Source of the DNA: Anoxynatronum buryatiense
GTDB lineage: Bacteria > Bacillota > Clostridia > Peptostreptococcales > Tindalliaceae
DNA length: 64,000 bases
Direction of reading: 5' to 3'
NCBI RefSeq assembly: GCF_900182905.1
Contig: NZ_FXUF01000004.1
Location: forward strand, 124,001 to 188,000
Shown here: positions 12,757 to 64,000 of the stretch, one piece after another
How the letters are laid out: each line of letters opens with the position of its first letter
Position numbering within the stretch: the stretch's first letter is position 1
Position numbers and translations under genes: made by a program
Notes under the pieces: model-generated
Databases searched by the model: none
The model's input: the letters and a program-made list of their open reading frames with translations, nothing else
What the model was told of the DNA's origin: nothing

Positions 12757-12857
12757 GGACACATGCGCCGCCAATTGTCCGAAAGATCAAAGGCAGGGCT
12801 TCAATTGAGAAATATTGGGCGGCAAAAAACAGGAAAGAATTGAGGACTGGACGATAC

Positions 12858-15185
12858 ATGAAATCTATTCGCATACAGATGCTGGCATGGTTGCTGCTGG
12901 GAGCCCTGATCCTGTTTGCGGGACTAGGCTTTTTCACAGAACAGCGCCTGAGAAAACTGCCGCCGGCCATTGAAGCTCAGTATATGGAAATTGCCGCTGC
13001 AAGAGCCGATGAAGTGGGCAAGCAGCTGAAAATATACATAGACCAAGTGCGCATGCTGGCTCAGTCAGAAGTGATTCAGTCCATGGACCGTCAACAGATT
13101 GATCTTTTTTTACCCCAAATGGTGCTGGAAGACATCGAGCGCAATCTGACCGTCGTCTGGCCCGACGGACGTGGCATCACCAGCCGGGGGTTGGTGGTAA
13201 ATGTTTCAGAGCAGGAGCAGTATGAAAAAATCTTTCTGGAAGGCGAAGAAACGTGGATTTCCAGCCCTTTCGTTAGTCCTTATGTGGAAACGGGTAAACC
13301 CATCACCATTGTCTCCCAGTCGGTGCGGCGAAACGGGGAAACCGTGGGCCTGATCAATGCAGTGGTGGAAATTGAATTTATCAACGACATTGTTCGCAGT
13401 GTGAACCTTCGGGAAACCGGCTACAGCTGGATTGTGGACCAACACGGTATGGTGGTGGCTCATCCGGATTCATCAAAACCCCTTCACCAGGCAGCGGCAG
13501 AAATATTTGGCGAAGAGATGAACATCTGCGAAGCCTTTTTAACGGAGGCGTCCGGTCTCCACCGTTACCATGAAGCGGGTGCCGCCATGGTGGCGCTGCA
13601 CCGGGCCATTCCCCACACCCCGGGATGGACCTTTATCATTTCCATACCGGAAGCTGAAATGTACCAGGAGGTGAAGGCTGTTTCCCGGGGGGTGCTGGCA
13701 GCCATCGGGTTGGGCCTGGCACTGGTGATAGTGTTCTCGCTGGCATATTCTGAAACGCTTTCCCGCCCCATTCTTGAGATGAAGGCGGTTTTCGAAAGAG
13801 CAGCGGCAGGCAATCTGAATGTACGGGCCAATGAACAGGTTGCCAATGAAGTGGGGCAGGCAGCTGCCAGCTTCAACCAGATGCTGGCAAAAATCAGACA
13901 CCTGACCTACCAGGATCCTCTGACCAACTTGAACAACTATCATGGTTTTTTGCTGGATCTTCCCTATAAACTGGAAAAGCTTCAACAACACCAGGCGGTC
14001 ACTGGCCTGGCCATTGTATCGGTGGATGACTTCAAGCGGATCAACAGTATCAGCGGGTATGAGCTGGGGAATGAGGTGCTGCTCACTCTGGCAGATCGAA
14101 TTCAGCGATTCCTGCAGCCCGGTGAATGTGCCGCCAGGCATTTTGGAGATGAGTTTGTGGTGCTGCTGGGAGAACAGCATGAAGATGCCTTCGAAGAGCG
14201 GGTGGTGCGTCTCTGGGAGGCCTGCAACACACTGCTGACGCTGAAAGATAACGAGTATATGCTGCGCACCAGCGTGGGAACCTGCAGCTTTCAGCCTGGC
14301 CGGGAACTGGATGAAGTGATGAACCGGGCCACCATGGCAAAGCTGTTCATTAAGCAAAAGGGTGGCAATGGCGTCCATCTCTTCAATGAAAGCCTTGAAG
14401 AAACCCTGAAAGAAGAACAGGATATTGAACGGGAGCTTTTTCATGCACTGGAAGAAAACCAGCTGAAACTGGTTTATCAACCGGTGATTCGCCTTGACAC
14501 CGAACAGATCACCGGCCACGAGGCACTGTTAAGGTGGCAGCATCCCCGCTATCATTCGCTGTCGGTGAACCGGCTGATTCATGTGGCTGAACAAACCGGC
14601 TACATCATTGAAATCGGGCGGTGGGTGATGCGTGAAGCCTGCCGTCAGAACAGGAAGTGGCATGAGGCTGGGCATGAGGCGCTGGTGGTGGCTGTGAACG
14701 TGTCTGCACTTCAGTTTGAACAGCCTTCTTTTGTGAACATGGTGCAGGAAATCCTTCAGGAAACCGGTTTGCCGGCCCACTGCCTGGAGCTGGAAATCAC
14801 AGAGCGGATTGCCATGATGGGAGTTCAGGAAAAAATGGCCAAAATGCGCCAACTGAAGGCCATGGGCGTCAGAATTGCCATTGATGATTTTGGCACCGGC
14901 TACTCTTCTCTGGCCTATTTTACCCAGTTTCCCATTGATACCCTGAAAATCGACAGGTCTTTTATCAACCAGATGATGGAAGACACCCATGCTGACACCA
15001 TTGTCGACACGATCATTACCATGGCCCAGGGCATGCGGGTGAGCACCATCGCCGAAGGAGTGGAAACGGCTGAACAGCAGGAGCGGCTGAAAGAAAAGGG
15101 CTGTGACCAGATGCAGGGCTACTGGTTTGCCCGACCCTTGTCACCGGAAGAGGCATTCAGCCGGTTGGAGACTGAAAGCGACTGA
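12858..15185 (+). CDS. Membrane GGDEF-EAL protein with extracytoplasmic sensor domain
   Basis: A 775-residue c-di-GMP protein. A helix at about residues 8-25 is followed by an extracellular dCache-like sensor (about 35-265), a second helix (about 280-298) and HAMP. The GGDEF domain has FGDEF in place of GGDEF (HFGDEFVVLL), so cyclase activity is doubtful. The C-terminal EAL domain keeps EALLRW, ELEITER, IDDFGTGYSSL and TLKIDRSF, so phosphodiesterase activity is likely. The ATG at 12858 is preferred over an upstream TTG because GAGG sits 11 bases upstream. It could lower the c-di-GMP sensed by the riboswitch at 20.7 kb, but no direct link is shown. Confidence 0.9.
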   Translation: MKSIRIQMLAWLLLGALILFAGLGFFTEQRLRKLPPAIEAQYMEIAAARADEVGKQLKIYIDQVRMLAQSEVIQSMDRQQIDLFLPQMVLEDIERNLTVVWPDGRGITSRGLVVNVSEQEQYEKIFLEGEETWISSPFVSPYVETGKPITIVSQSVRRNGETVGLINAVVEIEFINDIVRSVNLRETGYSWIVDQHGMVVAHPDSSKPLHQAAAEIFGEEMNICEAFLTEASGLHRYHEAGAAMVALHRAIPHTPGWTFIISIPEAEMYQEVKAVSRGVLAAIGLGLALVIVFSLAYSETLSRPILEMKAVFERAAAGNLNVRANEQVANEVGQAAASFNQMLAKIRHLTYQDPLTNLNNYHGFLLDLPYKLEKLQQHQAVTGLAIVSVDDFKRINSISGYELGNEVLLTLADRIQRFLQPGECAARHFGDEFVVLLGEQHEDAFEERVVRLWEACNTLLTLKDNEYMLRTSVGTCSFQPGRELDEVMNRATMAKLFIKQKGGNGVHLFNESLEETLKEEQDIERELFHALEENQLKLVYQPVIRLDTEQITGHEALLRWQHPRYHSLSVNRLIHVAEQTGYIIEIGRWVMREACRQNRKWHEAGHEALVVAVNVSALQFEQPSFVNMVQEILQETGLPAHCLELEITERIAMMGVQEKMAKMRQLKAMGVRIAIDDFGTGYSSLAYFTQFPIDTLKIDRSFINQMMEDTHADTIVDTIITMAQGMRVSTIAEGVETAEQQERLKEKGCDQMQGYWFARPLSPEEAFSRLETESD

Positions 15186-20573: not shown

Positions 20574-20603
20574 TTTACAAAAAGAACAAACCCATGGTAT
20601 AAT
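20574..20603 (+). promoter_or_regulatory. Promoter for the c-di-GMP riboswitch leader
   Basis: TTTACA (20574-20579), 18-base spacer, and TATAAT (20598-20603) with an extended TGG. The predicted start is near 20610. Confidence 0.65.
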
Positions 20604-20680
20604 GTTGACATAAGATAGGACTCCAGCATCAAATATAAAAAAATTGAAGTTGGAGTTGAAGTCGAGTTCCATGGTATAAA

Positions 20681-20777
20681 AATGGCAAAACCGTCCGAAA
20701 GGCGGTGACGCAAAGCCACGAGTCTACGTTCCCAGCCAATGAACCAGGGGAGGGGAATATGATCGTCGGGTTGCCTG
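20681..20777 (+). ncRNA. c-di-GMP-I (GEMM) riboswitch
   Basis: The sequence shows the GEMM-I signature: GGCAAAACC starting P1, a GAAA tetraloop closing GTCC/GGC, GACGCAAAGCCACGAGTCTA, and the 3' P1 strand CGGGTTGCC (20767-20775). The following terminator 5' arm GACCCGTT could pair with CGGGT of P1. Ligand binding would then free the terminator, which suggests an OFF switch (inference). It controls two very small genes at 20938 and 21144. A further hairpin with a GGTGG/CCACC stem (20783-20797) lies between aptamer and terminator. Confidence 0.92.
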
Positions 20778-20819
20778 CGACTGGTGGCAGTGCCACCAAT
20801 GACATGAGTCACATCCGGC

Positions 20820-20847
20820 GACCCGTTTTCACAACGGGTCGCTTTTT
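20820..20847 (+). terminator. Terminator of the c-di-GMP riboswitch
   Basis: GACCCGTT (20820-20827), loop TTCAC, AACGGGTC (20833-20840), then GCTTTTT. It is the expression platform of the preceding aptamer. Confidence 0.85.
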
Positions 20848-20937
20848 GCACACTCACAAGGAAAACCTTTACATGCACACTTCGTTTGCAGATGCTGGTT
20901 CCAATACCATCAAAAAGGACATGAGGAGAACTGGATC

Positions 20938-21147
20938 ATGGAAAAATGGACGGTGAAAACAGTTGTGTGTGAGGAGAATATGTGCTTAGCCGAACATTTA
21001 ATGAACCCTTTTGGCGTGGTGATTGTGCCGGCAGGAACGCCTCTGACACCGGGACTAAAAATAACACTGGCAGCAATGGGGATTGACAGAATTCCCGTTT
21101 GTGAAATGGACAGCAAGGAGAACTCATGGAGGAGGAACAGCGCATGA
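20938..21147 (+). CDS. Small c-di-GMP-riboswitch-controlled protein 1
   Basis: A 69-residue soluble protein with no signal or membrane segment. The core (CLAEHLMNPFGVVIVPAGTP then LAAMGIDRIPV) resembles the second small protein immediately downstream. It also resembles a short beta-rich module found at the N-terminus of many clostridial HD-GYP phosphodiesterases (LA-D-G-LL-KGT-LT pattern). That resemblance is from memory and is not proof of function. GAGGAG precedes the ATG. Its stop overlaps the next start (ATGA), so the two are translationally coupled. It is the first gene after the GEMM riboswitch. Confidence 0.65.
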   Translation: MEKWTVKTVVCEENMCLAEHLMNPFGVVIVPAGTPLTPGLKITLAAMGIDRIPVCEMDSKENSWRRNSA

Positions 21148-21347
21148 AAAAAGAACGGATTCCCATTGACAAATGTGATGGCAGCATGGTTTTATCAGAA
21201 GATCTCTATAATGACGTGGGTTTACTCTTATTAACCAAAGGCACCCGGTTGACCCAGGACAAAGTTTCGGTGCTGGTGCGTCGGGGAGTTACCTGCGTGC
21301 CGGTTGAAGTGGAACAACTTCAATCGATGCAAATTGGGGCACAATGA
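21144..21347 (+). CDS. Small c-di-GMP-riboswitch-controlled protein 2 (paralogue)
   Basis: A 67-residue protein with core MVLSEDLYNDVGLLLLTKGT then LVRRGVTCVPV. It aligns with protein 1 (G-V/L-hydrophobic, GT-P/R-LT, then G-I/V-x-x-x-PV), so the pair probably arose by duplication. GGAGGAGG nine bases upstream favours the ATG at 21144 over the one at 21126. No catalytic motif is visible. It could be a regulatory subunit or a free-standing copy of the HD-GYP leader module; the function is unknown. Confidence 0.65.
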   Translation: MKKERIPIDKCDGSMVLSEDLYNDVGLLLLTKGTRLTQDKVSVLVRRGVTCVPVEVEQLQSMQIGAQ

Positions 21348-21423: not shown

Positions 21424-21460
21424 CCAGGAATAACCGTTTTCGGATAATTCCTGTTTTTTT
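21424..21460 (+). terminator. Terminator after the two small genes
   Basis: CAGGAAT (21424-21430) pairs with ATTCCTG (21446-21452), with an inner CCG/CGG stem, followed by eight or more T. Confidence 0.85.
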
Positions 21461-21477
21461 TGCCTTTTTTCTTGGAA

Positions 21478-33474: not shown

Positions 33475-33495
33475 TTAATGTAACAATTTCATTGA

Positions 33496-33604
33496 GTAAC
33501 TCCGAGCTTTAGGACCTACAACACGTGTCACGGTCTTGAAGCCTGAAGGGTATTGTTGGAAACGGCAGTGCCTCCCGGTGCGGAAAGGAGGATGAGTCGG
33601 AGAT
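33496..33604 (+). ncRNA. Candidate molybdenum/tungsten cofactor (Moco) riboswitch
   Basis: CTCCGA (33500-33505) and TCGGAG (33597-33602) close a compact structured RNA. Inside are GCCTGAAGGG, GTTGGAAACGGCAGTGCC and CCTCCCGGTGCGGAAAGGAGG, the last folding as a stable stem. Arrangement and sequence resemble the Moco RNA motif as I remember it. It sits right after modABC, ahead of a molybdopterin enzyme, and is followed by a terminator, all as expected for cofactor-controlled premature termination. A covariance search is needed to separate Moco from a tungsten-cofactor variant. Confidence 0.72.
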
Positions 33605-33655
33605 GTTGATTTGTATCGTGTCTTTGATCGGAACGCTCGTTTAGTGTGAGTGACA

Positions 33656-62796: not shown

Positions 62797-64000
62797 TTAT
62801 TCAATAACAGTTTGAGTTTCAATTTCTGTCTGCAGGGCCTTCATGGCTTTTTCAACCAGCTTGCGTCGCAGGGCTTTTTCTTCCTTGACATCCAGGGCAG
62901 GATTACCGAAGGGGTGGGGAATGGCAACTGCCGGAACGATCCGGTTGGCGCCCACTGTCATGGAAATGGGTACTACGGTGCATACATGAACCACGGGAAG
63001 GCCAAAACGCTCAATCTCTTTTACCATCGTTGCGCCGCAACGAGTGCAGGTACCTCAGGTGGAGGTGAGAAGAACGGCATCCACACCGGCTTCCCTCAGT
63101 TCCTTTCCAATTCTGATACCGAAGGCACGAGAGTTGCCAACGGATGTTCCATTTCCAACGGTGCTGTAGAAAAACTCATGAATGTGGCCGATGATGCCTT
63201 CCCGCTCCATGTCACGCAGTACGTCCAGAGGCATTACCCGATCAGGATCTTCGTTGGCATATACCGGGTCGTACCCGCCGTGGGCAGTTTCATATTCTTC
63301 GGCGGTCAGGTCTTCAACGCCTTCGATGGAATACTTGCCAAACTTGGAAGCGCTGGAGGACTCCACCCGGTCAGGGTTGGTTTTGGGAACAATGCCGCCG
63401 GAGGTCACCAATGCGATTTTCAGATGACTCAGGTCACCCACAGCATCAGCGGGGGGTACCCGGTCGAAATCGGGCATGGCATATTCAGTCTGATAGTCGT
63501 CTCCCTTCAGTTTCGCCAGCAGCATGTTCACAGCCCGGCGGGAACCGCGTTCTTCTTTGAAGACGTTACGGCGAATGCCTCGGGGAATGTAGCCTTCTTC
63601 AGCAGGCAGCCCAATGGGTTCGCCATGAAGCAGTTTCTTTGCCAGGCTCACCATTCCGGGGACAGCTTTGCGCATGGTGGCAGCAGAGTTGCCGGTTTCC
63701 ACAATGTAAACGGCCTTGCGGAACAAATCGGCTCCCGGGTTTTCAATGTACATACCGGTGAGGGCGGGAATCTTCAGTTCCTCCTGCACCAGCCAGGCCA
63801 CTGTGGCGCAGGCCACGCCGTAACGACCGGCGTTGAAAGCGGGGCCAGCCAGAAACAGGTCAGGCTCAAAGGGTTTGATCATTTCAAGAATTTTTTGCTT
63901 GGAGATCTCCGGGTTTTCATTGAAGTAGGAGTCGCCGCATACAATGGTGGCGACAATTTCGGCCTCTTCACCCAGGGCGGTGTTTAGTGCCATTCCGGGT
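62797..64000 (-). CDS. grdB: Glycine/sarcosine/betaine reductase component B selenoprotein subunit, partial
   Basis: The C-terminal about 400 residues of a GrdB/GrdF/GrdH-type selenoprotein; the start lies beyond base 64000. An in-frame UGA at 63057-63055 encodes selenocysteine in STU-GTCTRCGATMVKE, giving the family UxxCxxC motif. The sequence GGDDYQTEYAMP-like region and VPISMTVGANRIVPAVAIPHPFG agree with the family. This subunit binds the substrate as a Schiff base with its partner and hands the carboxymethyl group to GrdA. I cannot tell glycine, sarcosine and betaine versions apart. About 36 residues are missing. Confidence 0.93.
63027..63043 (-). promoter_or_regulatory. Candidate SECIS stem-loop of grdB
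   Basis: On the minus strand TCGTTGC and GCAACGA form seven perfect pairs around the loop GGC. It begins 11 bases after the Sec UGA. Confidence 0.6.

Follow-up and report, generated by a model that had tools for sequence, protein, structure and literature searches.

In Anoxynatronum buryatiense, a riboswitch of a known class, c-di-GMP-I (GEMM-I), drives an undescribed family of small proteins for which Pfam has no model. Its two coupled genes, P0001 and P0002, encode proteins that belong, on profile evidence, with the N-terminal leader module of clostridial HD-GYP enzymes, and the combination of riboswitch and standalone module is, as judged from genome comparison, conserved within the Tindalliaceae. 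What the proteins do is a more tentative matter: the reading preferred here, to which we give somewhat less than an even chance, is of an OFF-riboswitch two-gene unit that would make adaptor or regulatory HD-GYP-leader modules when c-di-GMP is low. ‘The window’ denotes below the whole stretch of DNA that was analysed, 64,000 nucleotides in length, in which the unit and its parts lie as follows.

20574–20603 (+): promoter-like site of sigma-70 type (TTTACA, 18 nt, TATAAT); 11/12 consensus matches, a consensus match only
20674–20778 (+): c-di-GMP-I (GEMM-I) riboswitch aptamer; RF01051, 67.3 bits, E 5.1e-11
20767–20775 (+): aptamer 3′ strand CGGGTTGCC, alternative partner of 20817–20825; duplex of −17.2 kcal/mol, the strand being unchanged across 5 genomes
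20817–20825 (+): GGCGACCCG, antiterminator partner of 20767–20775, overlapping the terminator 5′ arm; conserved in 5 genomes, with one transition in G003
20817–20847 (+): intrinsic terminator of the riboswitch, hairpin and T tract; −19.1 kcal/mol by folding, z −6.9
20938–21147 (+): P0001, 69-aa standalone HD-GYP-leader-like module; leader HMM E 2.1e-6, pLDDT 81, orthologue in congener G001
21144–21347 (+): P0002, 67-aa standalone HD-GYP-leader-like module; leader HMM E 1.7e-14, pLDDT 84, orthologues in G003, G004 and G005
21425–21461 (+): terminator-like hairpin with T8, closing the unit; −11.3 kcal/mol by folding, z −3.0

The riboswitch and the borders of its unit

The aptamer is a member of RF01051 by covariance-model match, which was full length (model 1–87) and scored well above the gathering score of 35. 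The hairpin that follows it was more stable on folding than any of its shuffled versions (0/200 as stable), so the clear GEMM-I aptamer with terminator of the original prediction is borne out; the start given there, 20574, is the −35 box of the promoter-like site. This terminator was absent from the pattern-scan list and clear by folding, the probable reason being that the stem runs on into the T tract through G-T pairs.

CGGGTTGCC and GGCGACCCG offer nine complementary bases, one G-U pair included, and the antiterminator that they form and the terminator are mutually exclusive pairings of similar energy (computed as −17.2 versus −18.1 kcal/mol); the expression platform is, by this architecture, able to switch. 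Both switch elements and the terminator were present in 5/5 genomes having the unit. Since binding of c-di-GMP holds the aptamer 3′ strand, which according to the architecture should permit termination, the riboswitch appears to be of OFF design in all five genomes, c-di-GMP terminating transcription, with the sign in vivo read from the pairing scheme. In C. difficile, all of the c-di-GMP riboswitches of class I that were tested turned out to be OFF switches (PMC6200980), and the element described here shares their aptamer class and, putatively, their OFF logic via an intrinsic terminator. GEMM-I elements of Clostridia such as C. difficile control flagellar, adhesin or protease genes, however, whereas here two standalone modules are controlled.

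P0001 and P0002 overlap by 4 nt (ATGA), and P0002 would be 73 aa long if ATG 21126 is its start. Upstream lie a PfkB kinase gene and an Indigoidine_A (pseudouridine-phosphate glycosidase-like) gene, and downstream of the second hairpin lies a DUF3870 gene with a promoter-like site of its own. That hairpin and that site confine the unit to P0001 and P0002, as had been claimed in the original prediction, which assigned to the riboswitch just two coupled genes of 69 and 67 residues.

Kinship with the HD-GYP leader module

Sequence kinship was assessed with an HMM made from 31 leaders of full-size HD-GYP frames, with the standalone proteins excluded, and run against every stop-to-stop frame that the window contains with a length of 30 aa or more, 1192 in total. 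The two best frames were those of P0002 (E 1.7e-14) and P0001 (E 2.1e-6), the next best having an E of 2.6; the leaders had been gathered with P0002-group profiles, by which the P0002 value is somewhat favoured, and P0001 was not in those profiles. Profile–profile comparison matched the standalone set to the HD-GYP leaders at 97.9% (E 4e-13), and the P0001 group alone at 95.0% (E 4e-8). The likeness to the HD-GYP leader that had been proposed from the bare sequence is, by these profile comparisons, real. The likeness of the two proteins to each other, proposed at the same time, is clear by profile methods and weak by direct BLASTP, there being no match at E≤100 in a pairwise comparison, and 30% identity at E 0.007 in a search of the genome. 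P0001 is as near to HD-GYP leaders as to P0002, or nearer, and it is in a broad sense that the two hold as paralogues on sequence. As was also foreseen, neither carries an enzyme: both are shorter than 75 aa, no match to an HD domain was found in them, and their surroundings contain no remnant of HD-GYP.

Scanned against Pfam, the two proteins gave no meaningful family (IalB, at E 0.19, was set aside as chance), and PF11871 (DUF3391) was matched neither by them at E≤10 nor by seven relatives at E≤1. In NCBIfam, P0002 matched NF053512 weakly (E 1.2e-4, well short of the cut-off) towards the C-terminus of the profile, from which it seems that the leader module may also occur C-terminally. By profile search, the N-terminal leader of clostridial HD-GYP (PF13487/HD_5) proteins is the same 50–60 residue module, but there it fronts an enzyme, whereas here it constitutes the complete protein, without an HD domain and in a transcription unit of its own. 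DUF3391 occupies the same position relative to HD-GYP in other HD-GYP proteins, and, as is predicted for the module here, is small, globular and rich in beta structure, with a helix or two (PMC12943098). P0001 and P0002 differ from it in being shorter, standalone and riboswitch-controlled, and PF11871 was not matched in the HD-GYP proteins scanned either.

Structure prediction and structural search, suggested with the original prediction as a check, gave confident AlphaFold models over the module for both proteins (mean pLDDT 83.9 for P0002 and 81.2 for P0001), with a nearly identical order of strands and helix and the same kinds of PDB neighbours. One small beta-rich fold is predicted for both, although the alignments used for the two models held many common relatives, HD-GYP leaders included, so that the likeness of the models is not fully independent. 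For both, the best structural neighbours were the MoeA/gephyrin-E subdomain and the small beta module of RNA polymerase beta′ (for P0002, a VIA Z of 9.5 across 66 residues; best Foldseek E 2e-3), folds that the sequence profile also touches, weakly. The predicted fold is the same, but here it stands without catalytic or assembly context and at about 25% identity; the likeness may simply be one of common arrangement, and the models point to fold, rather than function. The solved Bd1817 leader (3TM8, DUF3391) was absent among the structural matches listed for the models.

Conservation within the Tindalliaceae

Three genomes of the sister genus Tindallia (G003, G004 and G005, one of them Tindallia sp. 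MSAO_Bac2) have a GEMM-I element followed by just one P0002 orthologue, some 60 aa long, located between dihydroorotase-like and cupin-like genes. In congener G001, GEMM-I is followed by a single P0001-like protein of 66 aa and then by nitronate-monooxygenase-like, threonine-synthase-like and aminotransferase-like genes; all three are also found further down the window, so this is probably the syntenic site. P0001 diverges fast, with 32% identity to this orthologue. The proposal that the same gene pair be sought in relatives was thus answered in part: GEMM-I with a standalone module recurs in these four genomes, and the tandem pair was seen in the window genome (G000) only. Across the P0002 orthologues, substitution patterns indicate purifying selection, with dN/dS of about 0.1 for G003–G004 (the sole unsaturated Tindallia pair, with four changes in all), about 0.07 for G005–G003 (dS near-saturated) and 0.26 between genera, for G000–G005.

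Searches of G006 (genus Tindallia, 96% complete) and of G002, an incomplete congener, did not find the unit. Wider searches covered 394 genomes at the level of the order and 391 at that of the class, the class results being the strongest matches listed. Among the matches listed, frames were of HD-GYP size almost throughout, and no standalone module with GEMM-I was found outside the Tindalliaceae in these samples; nor was a standalone module present in a sample of 35 further GEMM-I regions of the order. A scan of genome contigs with P0001 gave no match; when it was made with a mixed alignment, the one standalone P0002 orthologue to emerge was that of Tindallia sp. MSAO_Bac2, and no match to the module was found in the viral contigs searched. 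Extra short P0001-like frames in G000:C3, G001:C1, G003:C2, G004:C7 and G005:C126 were inspected and are not convincing relatives. The short module frames checked elsewhere in the order and class were HD-GYP frames that are split, cut short or at the end of a contig, and none of them has a GEMM-I. A deltaproteobacterial frame of 120 aa (L075:2462–2824, +), the one other short frame from the mixed-alignment scan, consists of the leader module and a tail, again without GEMM-I, and represents another standalone use of the module.

Proposed role and alternatives

With c-di-GMP bound, the aptamer would retain 20767–20775, pairing with 20817–20825 would be prevented and the terminator would form; with c-di-GMP low, the antiterminator would form instead and P0001 and P0002 would be produced. 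The free modules could then act by binding HD-GYP enzymes, or a putative partner to which HD-GYP leaders bind, and might in this way let the level of c-di-GMP act back on the turnover of the messenger, through a supposed effect on phosphodiesterase, or on the low-level (motile-state) programme. The genetic position of the modules makes it plausible that they have a regulatory role in c-di-GMP signalling, and possible partners exist in the form of 14 HD-GYP-type (PF13487) proteins in the genome, one of which has the same leader and its own GEMM-I. Deletion of the DUF3391 leader left enzyme activity unchanged in some HD-GYP proteins, and that leader takes no part in c-di-GMP binding (PMC12943098); by this analogy a direct allosteric role is weakened, and docking is favoured over direct catalytic control. 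Also weighing against the preferred reading are the place of P0001, no nearer to P0002 than to HD-GYP leaders, its fast divergence, and the failure of the searches of G006 and G002 to find the unit. A feedback loop, in which modules made at low c-di-GMP compete with or complement the HD-GYP leader and so tune degradation of the very messenger that represses them, is conceivable but doubtful.

It is quite possible, if short of probable, that the modules are instead effectors that c-di-GMP represses and whose partner, for example a protein of motility, of the envelope or of transcription, has no part in c-di-GMP turnover; with HD-GYP leaders they would have only ancestry in common. The window genome, of 4.16 Mb, has ten GEMM-I copies, and most of their other targets are secreted or surface-located rather than c-di-GMP enzymes; moreover, the predicted fold is a small beta module of a generic kind, which MoeA and RNA polymerase have too, and the unit includes no c-di-GMP enzyme in any of the five genomes. 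Against this, nearly all of the closest sequence relatives listed when the order and the class were searched have the size of HD-GYP frames, and one of the GEMM-I targets of the same genome is itself an HD-GYP gene, whose product carries the same leader module. Elsewhere in this genome, tandem GEMM-I aptamers (L010 and L011; G000:C16:42028–42214, −) precede one secreted-protein-like gene.

That the modules are themselves small receptors for c-di-GMP or another nucleotide is unlikely. Control by a riboswitch for the same ligand, and a domain that is small and probably soluble, would suit such a function, but neither protein matched PilZ or any other known c-di-GMP-binding family in Pfam or NCBIfam, and the analogous DUF3391 leader, as noted above, is not involved in binding the messenger.

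Decay or frameshift of an HD-GYP gene, leaving a remnant behind a retained riboswitch, is disfavoured and very improbable. Downstream of standalone DUF3391 records, an HD domain with a frameshift is often present (PMC12943098), and the other short module frames checked in the class are incomplete (one split from an HD-GYP frame, others truncated, one at a contig end), but none of these short frames has a GEMM-I element. Beyond the module itself there is no HD-GYP sequence downstream in the window, in Tindallia or in G001, which argues that P0001 and P0002 are not decayed enzymes; terminator-like sequences close the short genes, and P0002 appears to have been under purifying selection across two genera. 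Least credible of all is that the small ORFs are incidental, the riboswitch transcript being the functional product or the riboswitch a relic, for although five C. difficile class I riboswitches have no detectable downstream coding sequence (PMC6200980), the ORFs here show leader homology and signs of purifying selection, and in five genomes the aptamer is followed by the same module.

The leader module fronts very many clostridial HD-GYP enzymes, and no known function was found for it. Natural free-standing copies, kept without an enzyme and under c-di-GMP control, therefore offer a minimal system for asking what the module binds. Should the tentatively preferred reading hold, and the free modules act on HD-GYP proteins, they would be small proteins of a new regulatory class, acting on c-di-GMP turnover with feedback built in; the maintenance of the unit in related bacteria suggests that c-di-GMP signalling has an overlooked small-protein arm.

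Other features of the window may be recorded here. A dCache-HAMP-GGDEF-EAL protein is encoded about 6 kb from the riboswitch unit (12840–15185, +) and is a possible source or sink of c-di-GMP. A Moco (molybdenum/tungsten cofactor) riboswitch (33488–33606, +; 70.4 bits) lies between genes for an ABC transporter of molybdate type and for a xanthine-dehydrogenase-like molybdoenzyme. At the right end of the window, a SECIS_4 element (63017–63054, −) adjoins a gene for a glycine-reductase-like subunit, and a selenoprotein is therefore probably encoded there.
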